The notes under the pieces were generated by a model that had not been told where the DNA came from, made no database searches, and saw nothing but the letters and a program-made list of their open reading frames with translations. Made by a program: the position numbers and the translations under genes. Shown in pieces: positions 24,056-28,213 of a stretch of 44,989 bases of DNA (position 1 is its first letter; every line of letters starts with the position of its first letter). This DNA comes from Klebsiella pneumoniae. Lineage in GTDB: Bacteria > Pseudomonadota > Gammaproteobacteria > Ga0077536. The stretch is taken from NCBI GenBank assembly GCA_945876945.1, contig CAMCQE010000017.1, forward strand, positions 1 to 44,989. Direction: 5' to 3'.

Positions 24056-24265
24056 GAAAAGTGGTTCGTGCTTGATCTCGGATATCAGGCCACCCGGGCC
24101 TCACCTGATGCTCGGATAGACTTGCTCAAGAGCCAGTAATACCATCGTTTGCGCCGGGCCCAAAGGTCTTGCTCGATGGCTTCAAGCCGCCTCTCAAGAG
24201 ACCTTGAATCAGCGCGAGGGCGCGGCCTTTTCATTCGTGCAATCGTTTCACCGGAGGAAGGTCAG

Positions 24266-24580
24266 ATGAAAAAGAACACGCTAAAGCCCGTCGCGATGGC
24301 CATTGGCTCATCAGTGGTGCTCGCACTTTCAGTGGGTGCCAGCGCGGCAGAAAATCCGTTTCAGATGATTGAGTTTGGTACCGCCGTAACGGTCGCCTCG
24401 GAAGCCGTGGATATGCAGGGTAACAAAGTCAAAATCAACGATGAAACCGGATTTAGCTACGGTGGCGATATTCAGGGCAAATACGCCAGCGGCAAGCTTG
24501 GCACTGGCACGAAAGACCCGGCCGTTTGCGGCACTTTCAGCGGCGCCAGCTGCGCCATGACGCATTTGAAGAAGGAATAA
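24266..24580 (+). CDS. Small exported precursor peptide of the MNIO cluster (HvfA/BufA-like)
   Basis: 104 residues with an excellent GGAGG ribosome-binding site just upstream (24252-24256). Residues 1-27 form a Sec-type signal peptide ending VGASA. The mature part opens with AENPFQMIEFGTA, which recalls the ENPF.M.EL start of HvfA-type precursors in DUF692 (MNIO) clusters. Unlike those, there are no repeated Cys-Gly units. Only two cysteines remain, C88 and C96, in VCGTFSGASC near the C-terminus. It is directly followed by the MNIO and DUF2063 genes, so it is most likely their substrate. The modification and any metal-binding role are inferred. Confidence 0.75.
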   Translation: MKKNTLKPVAMAIGSSVVLALSVGASAAENPFQMIEFGTAVTVASEAVDMQGNKVKINDETGFSYGGDIQGKYASGKLGTGTKDPAVCGTFSGASCAMTHLKKE

Positions 24581-24600
24581 GCCTGCTGTTGACGCAGGAC

Positions 24601-25470
24601 ATGGCCGGCGGCGGCGGTCGCGTGGACCCTCAGGTATGGGGGGCCGGTCTTGGCTTACGGCGGGCTCATCTGGGCCCGCTCCTCGAAGAAATCCCGTCCG
24701 CAATCCAGTTCATGGAAGTCGCGCCCGAAAATTGGCTGGGCGTCGGTGGCCGCCTGGGCCGCACGTTTGCCCAGCTCGCCGAGCGGGTGCCGATGGTCTG
24801 CCATGGTTTGTTGCTGAATCTGGGCGGCCCCGACCCGATCGACGTTGATTTCCTCCGTCGGCTAAAGCCATTTCTGGCGCAGCATCGCATTCGCTGCTAC
24901 AGCGACCATCTTTCCTTCTGCGGTGACCGCGGCCTGCTGTACGAACTGCTCCCGATACCGTTTACCGTCGAAGCCGTGCGCCATGTGGCGGCGCGAATTC
25001 GCTTGGTTCAGGACGTGCTGGAGCAGCACATCGCCATCGAAAATGCCTCCTACTACTGCACCTTGGCGGAGGATCTGCCCGAAATTGAATTTATCAACGC
25101 GGTATTGGCCGAGGCAGATTGCGGCCTCCTGCTGGACCTGAACAACGTCTACGTGAACAGCCAGAACCATGGCTATGACCCCGTCAGGTTTCTGGAGGCC
25201 CTGCCTGCCGAGCGCATCACTTATGCGCATATTGCGGGGCATTGGGTGGCTGACGACGGACTCATCATCGACACCCACGGCGCGCCGGTCGTGGACCCCG
25301 TATGGCAACTGCTCGGGCACGCCTTTGAGCAGTTCGGTGTGTTTCCCACCTTGCTCGAGCGCGACGAAAACATTCCGGCGTTACCGGAGGTCCTGAGTGA
25401 GATTGCGGCGCTTACGGCGCTTCAACTCGCGCACGGTCACAGCGCTGCACAAGGCCATGGACGTGGCTGA
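24601..25470 (+). CDS. bufB: Multinuclear non-heme iron oxidase (MNIO, DUF692), BufB/HvfB-like
   Basis: 289 residues, TIM-barrel DUF692 family. MNIO enzymes modify cysteines in RiPP precursors (for example MbnB, and thiooxazole formation in bufferins). The metal-ligand set looks complete: E39/N44 in FMEVAPENW, H69 in CHGLLLN, D102-H103 in YSDHLSF, E147-N148, D179/N181 in LLDLNNVY, H210 and H214 in AHIAGHW, D224/H226 in IDTHG, and E253/D255 in LERDENIP. The frame is open back to 24526, inside the precursor gene; ATG 24601 gives the normal family length. The next gene overlaps its 3' end. Sequence supports an active enzyme; the substrate follows from context. Confidence 0.9.
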   Translation: MAGGGGRVDPQVWGAGLGLRRAHLGPLLEEIPSAIQFMEVAPENWLGVGGRLGRTFAQLAERVPMVCHGLLLNLGGPDPIDVDFLRRLKPFLAQHRIRCYSDHLSFCGDRGLLYELLPIPFTVEAVRHVAARIRLVQDVLEQHIAIENASYYCTLAEDLPEIEFINAVLAEADCGLLLDLNNVYVNSQNHGYDPVRFLEALPAERITYAHIAGHWVADDGLIIDTHGAPVVDPVWQLLGHAFEQFGVFPTLLERDENIPALPEVLSEIAALTALQLAHGHSAAQGHGRG

Positions 25471-26239
25471 GCCGGGCTTTCTCAAATTACAGCGAGCGTT
25501 CACGGACCACCTCCGCAACCCTGCTCAAGTTGCGCCACCACCGCTCCCTGAAGCGCGCCTCGCGGTCTACCGCGACGCTGTGTTTCTGAATATTGAGCGC
25601 TTCATGCGAGATAACTTTCCGCGTTTGGCGGCGGTGCTACCGGCCGCAATCTGGCAGGGGCTCATGCGTGATTACATCGTTCGCCACGCCGCCCGGACGC
25701 CCCTGTTTGTGGAACTGCTCTCGGAGTTTCTCGCGTATCTGGAACGCGAACGGCAGGAGCCCTCGGACCCGCTTTGGCTACGAGAACTGGCGCATTTCGA
25801 CTGGCTCGAAAACACGCTGGCCAGCGATATGCGTGAATTTGAAAGCGGGTCCGCGACCCTGCCCCCACCGCTGATGACTCACGCGTTGGCGGTCAACCCG
25901 GTGCATCAACTCGTGCGCTACGTCTTTCCCGTTCACGCAATCAGTGTCGAGTACTTGCCCGCCGAGCCCCCGCCGATAGCCACGCTTCTGCTGGCCTTTC
26001 GGGCGCCGTCCGATGAGTTCGCAGTGCTCGACCTAAACGACGCCTCTGCCGAGTTATTTGTGGCGATCCGTGAAGGCCTCGCGCCACACGAGGCGCTTGA
26101 CGCGATTGCCGAAGCCATGGGGCATCGCGCTCCTGCGCAACTGATGGCCTTCGGTGAGAAAATGATTCAGCGCTGGTATGAACTTGGGCTCGTTCTTGGC
26201 GTCAGACCGGATGGCCAGACCCAGCCCATCGTGGACTGA
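25457..26239 (+). CDS. bufC: DUF2063 partner protein of the MNIO enzyme (BufC/HvfC-like)
   Basis: 260 residues from ATG 25457; GTG 25397 is an alternative that would overlap the MNIO gene by 74 bp. The N-terminal DUF2063 domain is recognised by LKLQRAFTDHLRNP, ARLAVYRDAVFLNIERFMRDNFPRLAAVL and FVELLSEFLAYLE. The C-terminal half holds a second small domain. Proteins of this family pair with DUF692 enzymes as RRE-like precursor-binding partners; older annotations call them DNA-binding. The overlap with the MNIO gene supports a shared complex. It is the last gene of the cluster. Confidence 0.86.
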   Translation: MDVAEPGFLKLQRAFTDHLRNPAQVAPPPLPEARLAVYRDAVFLNIERFMRDNFPRLAAVLPAAIWQGLMRDYIVRHAARTPLFVELLSEFLAYLERERQEPSDPLWLRELAHFDWLENTLASDMREFESGSATLPPPLMTHALAVNPVHQLVRYVFPVHAISVEYLPAEPPPIATLLLAFRAPSDEFAVLDLNDASAELFVAIREGLAPHEALDAIAEAMGHRAPAQLMAFGEKMIQRWYELGLVLGVRPDGQTQPIVD

Positions 26240-26386: not shown

Positions 26387-28213
26387 ATGTCGGAATCCAA
26401 TTTCGCCCTAAACGAGCGCCCAGCCTTCACCGTTGAAGGCTACCTGCCGCAGAAACTCCAACTGCTACGGCGGCCGGTTGTCCGCCTGATTGACAGACTG
26501 CTCGGACTCAGCGAACTCACCAGCCGGTATCGCCGTTTACCGCAGGCGAACGATGTGCCGGAATTTGTCCGACTCGCTTTGCGCGAACTCGCCATCAGCC
26601 CTGAATTTGAAGCAGAGCATCTCGAGCGGATCCCGAAGACGGGTCCTTGCGTCGTGGTTGCCAATCATCCGCACGGCGGACCCGACGGCCTGCTGTTGAT
26701 GGATTTGCTGCTGCGAGTGCGCCCCGACGTGCGCTTCGTTGCCAATCACTTCCTCGCCGGCTTCATGGAATTGCGCTCCTTGCTCTTGCAGGTCGATCCT
26801 TTCGGGGGCGGCCGGGCTGCACGCTACAACATTGCCGCCGTGCGGGCCGCCCGCAAATGGCTGGAGCAGGGCGGGATGATCGTGATGTTCCCCGGTGGGG
26901 AAGTCTCAAGCCTCAAGCTCAGCACCGGGCAGGTGACCGATCCGGAATGGACCTCAGGTGCGGCCCGCCTCTTGCGACAGACCGGCGCACCGGCGTTGCC
27001 GATCTACATCGAGGGCCGCAACAGCACGCTGTTCCAGATTGGCGGTTTGCTCAATCCCCGTTTGCGTACCGCACTACTGGTGCGCGAACTGTTGAAGCCG
27101 AGGACCGTGCGTCTGCGCATTGGCCGGCCGTTGGCCCCTTCGGTGCTGACTGAACTGGGCGATGACGAAGTCTCCGCGCAGTATCTTCAATACAAAACCT
27201 ACCTGTTGCGGGTGGCCGATCGGTCCGGCCGGAGCGCCGAGCCCGCGAAGCCCAAACCCAAAACCCGGTTACTGCCGATCGCCGAGGCCCCATCAGAAGA
27301 GTCGCTGGCGCGCGAAGTCAGCGGTCTCAGCGCCGAGCAGTTGCTACATGCGCACGGCTCGCTCGAAATCTGGTATTTCACCGGCCGCGAATGCCCCAAT
27401 TTGCTCACCGAAATAGGTCGTCTGCGTGAACTGACGTTCCGCCGGATTGGCGAAGGCACCGGCAAAGCCTGCGACCTCGACGAATACGACGACTACTACC
27501 AGCACATGTTTCTGTGGGACAAAAAGACCCTGCAGATCATCGGCGCGTACAGGATGGGACCCAGCGATCTGATTCTGCCCAGGCGCGGTCCGCACGGGCT
27601 GTATACCCATTCCTTGTTCCGCATGTCGGGCAAACTGCTGGAGAAACTGAGTTGCGGCGTCGAGATGGGCCGTTCCTTCGTGCGTATCGAACAGCAGCGC
27701 AGTTTCACTGCTCTGCTGATGCTCTGGCGCGGCATCGGCGTGTACGTGGTGCGCAATCCGCGTTACCGCTATCTGTTCGGTCCGGTGAGCATCAGTAACG
27801 ACTACCATCCGCTGTCGCAGCAAATTCTGGTCGCCATGCTCAAGCGTCATAAATTTGATGCCGAGCACGCGGGGGAAGTGCGCCCGCGCCGGCCGTTTCG
27901 GGTGCGTGAGCATGAACTCCCGGTCTTTGATTCGATGGAAGACCCCGACTCCCGGGTGCTGGCTGATTTGCTTGGCACGCTGGAGGAAGATGAGAAGGGC
28001 GTCCCCGTGTTGTTACGCCAATATCTCAAGCTCGGCGGTCGTATTCTCGGGTTCAACGTCGATCCCGCTTTCAACAACGTCATTGATGGCCTGTTGGTGG
28101 TGGATCTCCTGCAGACTGAGCCGCCGATTCTCGCCAAGTACTTCACCGACGCCGGTACCGAGGCATTCCGGGCTTTCCACGGCAAAGGAATGGCCATTGA
28201 GAGTGCAGCCTGA
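26387..28213 (+). CDS. OlsF-like bifunctional acyltransferase (O- and N-acyl transfer)
   Basis: A 608-residue fusion. Residues about 75-290 are a PlsC/OlsA-type acyltransferase with NHPHGGPDG (93-101) and FPGGEVSS. Residues about 325-600 are an OlsB-type acyl-ACP N-acyltransferase of the GNAT superfamily (LTFRRIGEGTGKACDLDEYD, SLFRMSG, CGVEMGRSFV). OlsF of Serratia has the same order and makes ornithine or glutamine lipids in one polypeptide. Product specificity here is inference. A Pro/Lys linker (about 283-305) joins the halves. It stands alone, about 150 bp after the MNIO cluster and 110 bp before pyc. Confidence 0.82.
   Translation: MSESNFALNERPAFTVEGYLPQKLQLLRRPVVRLIDRLLGLSELTSRYRRLPQANDVPEFVRLALRELAISPEFEAEHLERIPKTGPCVVVANHPHGGPDGLLLMDLLLRVRPDVRFVANHFLAGFMELRSLLLQVDPFGGGRAARYNIAAVRAARKWLEQGGMIVMFPGGEVSSLKLSTGQVTDPEWTSGAARLLRQTGAPALPIYIEGRNSTLFQIGGLLNPRLRTALLVRELLKPRTVRLRIGRPLAPSVLTELGDDEVSAQYLQYKTYLLRVADRSGRSAEPAKPKPKTRLLPIAEAPSEESLAREVSGLSAEQLLHAHGSLEIWYFTGRECPNLLTEIGRLRELTFRRIGEGTGKACDLDEYDDYYQHMFLWDKKTLQIIGAYRMGPSDLILPRRGPHGLYTHSLFRMSGKLLEKLSCGVEMGRSFVRIEQQRSFTALLMLWRGIGVYVVRNPRYRYLFGPVSISNDYHPLSQQILVAMLKRHKFDAEHAGEVRPRRPFRVREHELPVFDSMEDPDSRVLADLLGTLEEDEKGVPVLLRQYLKLGGRILGFNVDPAFNNVIDGLLVVDLLQTEPPILAKYFTDAGTEAFRAFHGKGMAIESAA

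Follow-up and report, generated by a model that had tools for sequence, protein, structure and literature searches.

A strictly conserved two-cysteine module, which appears undescribed and may sit uncategorised in the supplements of the published MNIO landscape (PMC12452194), forms the C-terminal part of a small secreted peptide encoded in one operon with an MNIO (DUF692) enzyme and a DUF2063 partner. The operon lies on the plus strand at 24266–26239 of contig CAMCQE010000017.1, whose full 44,989 nucleotides are referred to here as the window (Table 1). Judged by its sequence, the two-Cys peptide is most likely a captophorin-like precursor. The reading that we favour, with some reserve, is an hvfABC-type RiPP operon with a non-repeat precursor, in which HvfBC would oxidise C88 and perhaps C96 and the exported peptide would bind copper.

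Table 1. Features of the two-Cys operon in the window and of the split hvf operon in its genus.
Feature	Position	Strand	Remarks
Candidate promoter, TAGACT + 17-nt spacer + TACCAT	24117..24145	+	About 120 nt 5' of the precursor start; putative function
Two-Cys precursor, 104 aa	24266..24580	+	Signal peptide (~1–28), ENPFQMIEF leader-like segment, C-terminal module with C88 and C96
Conserved module, AVDMQGNKV...YGGD...KDPAVCGTFSGASCAMTHLKKE	24404..24577	+	19 invariant positions, both cysteines among them, over 18 representatives of four families
HvfB-family MNIO, 289 aa, GLRR and LERDE	ATG 24601..25470	+	NF003818, 389.8 bits (cut-off 360); PF05114, 326 bits
HvfC partner (DUF2063 + NGO1945_C), 260 aa	ATG 25457..26239	+	NF050145, 198.7 bits (cut-off 142); PF09836; PF22106
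Split hvf operon, window's genus	hvfA-hvfC at L162 (G003:C23), L163 (G007:C31), L164 (G005:C907); lone E-type hvfB at L150–L152		

The order of precursor, DUF692 enzyme and overlapping DUF2063 gene, as read in the first-pass annotation, was confirmed by the ORF calls, with an overlap of 14 nt between the last two genes. Of the 18 upstream regions of two-Cys genes, 11 contained ATACCAT between -116 and -134, mostly with T(A/G)GACTT at equal distance, against an expectation from shuffling of about 0.5 of 21 regions; the candidate promoter of the window scored under the threshold of the consensus scan. An Rfam search gave no match in the operon. Directly 3' of the cluster, an OlsF-like fused acyltransferase is encoded at 26387–28213 (418 bits, under the cut-off of 620); its position is kept in relatives of the genus and it is apparently unrelated to the RiPP.

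On their profile scores, the two enzymes can be classed as ordinary members of the HvfB and HvfC families, the nearest solved relative of the MNIO being 3BWW. Against BufB (NF050167) the MNIO scored 261.7 bits, under the cut-off of 310, and against MbnB 39.5 bits (cut-off 325); it was also far under the cut-offs of ApyH and ChrH. The trio had initially been described as of bufferin/HvfA type, of which the HvfB/HvfC (oxazolin/captophorin) part is borne out and the BufB/BufC part is not. A canonical bufferin was ruled out by the BufB score together with the absence of a DUF2282 domain from 18 of 18 members of the precursor family.

The precursor contains exactly two cysteines, C88 and C96, neither of them preceded by Lys, and carries ENPFQMIEF after its signal peptide, in line with what had been seen at first pass. 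Its N-terminus is HvfA-like, with a Sec signal containing LKP and an ENPF-type start, and matched canonical HvfAs there at 35–48% identity; repeated EGKCG or Lys-Cys motifs and a match to NF050137 (HvfA) were absent. The HMM comparison with known families that had been suggested placed the precursor outside every curated family of bufferins or HvfAs, as searches of Pfam and NCBIfam gave no significant match either singly or with 18 homologues, and a sequence search of the PDB with the precursor profile returned nothing credible. AlphaFold2 gave a pLDDT of 47 for the precursor and 45 for the module, with no confident fold; this low confidence fits a flexible peptide but would equally fit a shallow alignment.

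Strong precursor matches by E-value were found in 18 of the 36 genomes searched from this GTDB family (f1), and loci from a contig-level search lay largely on the same contigs. The 17 aligned relatives are 60–82% identical, and every one keeps both cysteines and has no other. The 18-row alignment has 38 invariant columns, among which are C88, C96 and the KDPAVCG block; together with the low dN/dS of the module given below, this shows that the reading frame did not arise by chance. In 15 of the 17 relatives the precursor gene stands directly 5' of the MNIO gene of an hvfB-hvfC pair; the exceptions, L010 and L035, are second copies, and each of their genomes has the full cluster as well. None of the 10 f1 genomes lacking any MNIO had the precursor. 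One genome with a leadered precursor and no HvfC found (G031) is 57% complete, which may explain the gap. Seven f1 cluster loci read with their flanks had a Sel1-repeat gene beside the operon and a pyruvate carboxylase gene after the operon, directly or past an acyltransferase gene; the flanking genes being constant, the locus is vertically inherited rather than a mobile cluster. Searches of plasmids, phages and viral contigs found no relatives, and a phylum-wide sample added no further member.

The region before the cysteines had at first been taken for a loose Gly/Lys/Asp-rich spacer. It belongs instead to a conserved module of about 55 residues that includes them (YGGDx4YxxGKxxTGxKDPxVCGxFx4C), with seven residues between C88 and C96 (CGxFx4C) in the window and its relatives. 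The proposed precursor subclass with a minimal two-Cys core therefore stands as a conserved subclass, its conserved unit being the whole module and extending beyond VCGTFSGASC. As to whether the cysteines are conserved in homologues, which the first-pass annotation had raised, all full-length homologues have both. Pairwise dN/dS over the module was about 0.04–0.13 (pairs with both rates estimable), so that purifying selection acts on it.

Searching the whole class with a profile revealed the module in three more families (f67, f133 and f120), and none of the genomes found with it lacks an MNIO of some type. Its settings vary. At L075 and L079 it is fused behind EGKCG repeats, before hvfBC with an F-type MNIO; at L068, L070, L071 and L072 it follows an HvfA-like NPF leader with no adjoining MNIO; L069, L076, L077 and L078 are leaderless secreted proteins, and L073 and L074 carry a lipobox. 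Leaderless and lipobox forms occur in f67, where genomes with HvfBC also have leaderless copies. Since the module occurs elsewhere without leader or adjacent enzymes, it is not solely a modification cassette. A single fixed functional context (NQR, ApbE, acyltransferase or methanol dehydrogenase) was considered and dropped, as the neighbours of orphan copies differ among families.

The leader segment and HvfC co-vary. The segment is present in f1 and f133 genomes that have HvfC, whereas in G154, G374 and G779 (f120 and one genus of f133), which have no HvfC above the cut-off, the module lacks an ENPF-type leader segment and keeps both cysteines. G154 reads FATEARDMKGNKV, against AxNPFQMVEFG..VTVAxEAVDMQGNKV in f1 members, and G374 and G779 read AFAEKGHDMAGNEVE, against AANPFSSTDLSTGYMVAEKGHDMAGNEVE in G167. 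The segment missing in G154 corresponds to about residues 29–44 of the window's precursor. The G154 gene occupies the f1 locus, where thiG and trmB flank it on one side and an inverted pyruvate carboxylase gene on the other. After its stop codon comes RPVTRYFSVRSAGLGLRRARPGP, the remnant of an hvfB start, whose local score of 70 exceeded the highest value, 59, from 300 shuffles. From this synteny and remnant it follows that the enzymes were lost there and the leader segment is gone, while the two-Cys module remains. The co-variation amounts to two phylogenetic contrasts, below the number for a statistical test, and its converse is not strict, since f67 combines HvfBC with leaderless copies.

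In a phylogenetic tree, the MNIOs adjoining two-Cys precursors formed one clade (88/86), apart from those of EGKCG and fusion precursors. GLRR (R15/R16 of FonB) and the LERD motif, which holds the catalytic Asp, were kept in nearly all enzymes of both groups. The next residue corresponds to FonB Phe250, a substrate contact according to the published model (PMC13097082). Here the members of the two-Cys clade carry Glu, apart from L026 with Leu, whereas the EGKCG and fusion enzymes carry Phe; L002, L144 and L149, with Ala, and L134, with Tyr, are exceptions. Because the Glu-bearing clade is single, the change from Phe to Glu was one event; it suggests a switch in substrate specificity but does not prove one. 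G003, G005 and G007, all from the genus of the window, retain the E-type MNIO at the syntenic locus but have neither the two-Cys precursor nor HvfC there; elsewhere they carry an hvfA-hvfC pair, its cores of GACGG/GGCG type, that has no MNIO beside it (Table 1). The MNIO probably serves this split-off precursor in trans, which suggests that E-type enzymes tolerate cores lacking Lys before Cys rather than being bound strictly to the two-Cys module.

By the features tested, the precursor falls outside the EGKCG, DUF2282, Buf2 and CxxxxC groups, although it shares the HvfA-type N-terminus. The operon resembles those of the EGKCG captophorins HvfABC/oxazolin, fontiphorin and bulbicupramide (PMC13419390, PMC13097082, PMC12538549) in gene order, in enzymes scoring above the HvfB and HvfC cut-offs and in the Sec signal with LKP and ENPF-type start. 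It differs from them in having two fixed cysteines in a non-repeat module instead of an EGKCG or Lys-Cys repeat, in the Glu of its MNIO and in the lack of a DoxX gene 3' of the operon. With Buf1 (DUF2282) and Buf2 (Buf_6/12Cys) it shares a signal-peptide precursor, an MNIO, a DUF2063 partner and a likely copper role, but it has two cysteines compared with at least four (six or twelve in Buf2), besides the differences in DUF2282 and BufB score given above. Two further groups are described in PMC12452194. Buf_EGKCG/EF-hand_5 precursors, one of which is present in G167/G279, likewise join an HvfA-type leader to an extra conserved domain; there the EGKCG Cys is the target and the EF-hand the extra, whereas here the added module holds the sole cysteines. 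The CxxxxC family also has a secreted precursor beside an MNIO and DUF2063 and is defined by one Cys pair, with a spacing of four rather than seven; by that description it is distinct, and no Lactamase_B_2 gene was found in the operon of the window.

In the hvfABC-type pathway that we propose, HvfC would recognise the region of the signal peptide and ENPFQ and bring the C-terminal module to HvfB; HvfA that lacks the signal peptide undergoes scarcely any modification (PMC13419390). HvfB, in which Glu replaces the Phe of Lys-Cys enzymes, would then oxidise C88 in PAVCGT to a 5-thiooxazole in the cytoplasm, a reaction in which, by homology to HvfBC and FonBC, Cys is oxidised together with the carbonyl of the preceding residue. 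C96, in SC(S/A), might be oxidised in the same way. FonBC needs no Lys before Cys-Gly, so an ordinary 5-thiooxazole, rather than the different modified product raised in the first-pass annotation, is the default expectation; FonBC modifies NVCGG and GKCGT variants once each and needs Gly or Ala after Cys (PMC13097082). Given these flanking requirements C88, in AVCGT, would be the likelier target and C96, followed by Ser or Ala, the less certain one. Sec would export the peptide and, after cleavage of the signal peptide, a mature form of about 76 residues would bind copper in the periplasm or outside the cell. A role in copper handling is suggested by analogy with the family, by the orphan leadered copy L035 in G035, directly 5' of a plastocyanin/azurin-family cupredoxin gene (L154, 4415–5298; PF00127, 54.7 bits), and by the Met/His-rich tail of L070. 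The module may also occur unmodified, as a secreted two-Cys unit.

This pathway has to be weighed against a reading in which the cysteines are not MNIO targets but pair as a disulfide, or bind metal as a plain site, within a small secreted module, while HvfBC mainly serves another precursor. We regard that as unlikely, at roughly one chance in four, though several observations point its way: both cysteines are kept in G154, G374 and G779 and in the leaderless and lipobox forms of f67, the genome of the window has a second hvfABC with an EGKCG precursor (on the contig labelled C88, its MNIO being L002) that could supply a canonical substrate, and G003, G005 and G007 retain an E-type MNIO without a two-Cys precursor. 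The last point, together with the Ser that may follow C96 where FonBC accepts only Gly or Ala, also counts against the favoured pathway. Conversely, in several f1 genomes (for example G004, G008, G026, G027 and G033) the sole MNIO adjoins the two-Cys precursor, the leader precedes the module where HvfBC is present and is gone where HvfC is missing, and a substrate-contact residue is changed in the MNIO clade. Conservation of the module without HvfBC and in leaderless f67 copies does indicate that both cysteines serve a role besides modification. There is nearly an even chance that the module is a free-standing secreted metal-binding unit to which MNIO modification is optional, gained through an HvfA-type leader (beside or in trans to hvfBC) and lost with leader and enzymes; a RiPP core would then be a conserved protein module that exists both modified and unmodified.

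Modification of another residue of the module, such as a conserved Asp, Asn or Tyr, to give a different product would agree with the invariance of the KDP, YGGD and GN positions and with the MNIOs acting on residues besides Cys that are listed in PMC12452194, but such enzymes form separate MNIO groups and HvfB acts on Cys, so that we consider it improbable. It is more improbable still that the peptide is a decaying HvfA, its repeats lost and its C-terminus a neutral leftover: although a decayed module copy before hvfBC does exist in G232, the purifying selection and the invariant columns described above disfavour the idea, as does the presence of the module in other families, where some copies are fused to intact EGKCG repeats.

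Pairs of MNIO and DUF2063 genes are very common, and the published landscape left hundreds of precursor-like ORFs with 1–18 Cys unclassified (PMC12452194). The present locus supplies a two-Cys substrate that is minimal, conserved and well defined, together with an enzyme clade to match, a one-residue candidate for specificity in the Glu for Phe250 and natural leaderless cases. This makes testable whether the leader or the sequence flanking Cys determines modification, and whether MNIO chemistry can be grafted onto an existing secreted module. Beyond the trio itself, the most interesting part is that one two-Cys module occurs in leadered and leaderless forms, and modification by an MNIO may be an optional extra for it.

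Several minor observations were made on related loci. L080 (G335:C87) and L081 (G101:C75) have an ENPF-like start and lie directly 5' of a gene for a PQQ methanol/ethanol-family dehydrogenase (TIGR03075, 703 bits), with a TonB receptor gene next. The dehydrogenase has a DYDG motif, as in lanthanide-type enzymes, and a metal link in methanol oxidation is possible for this context. The decayed copy in G232 (L083/L114, G232:C21) reads ELGNFSYGDDDMTKYADGKLG and stands between an EGKCG array, upstream of it, and an intact hvfB-hvfC pair. Another HvfB-associated precursor type, with VAKCGNICGG-like motifs and no EGKCG repeats, was seen at L108, L115, L135 and L136 (G035, G015, G012 and G020), and at L031/L130 (G017:C303) a 58-aa HvfA-like precursor with one EGKCCG motif precedes hvfB-hvfC.
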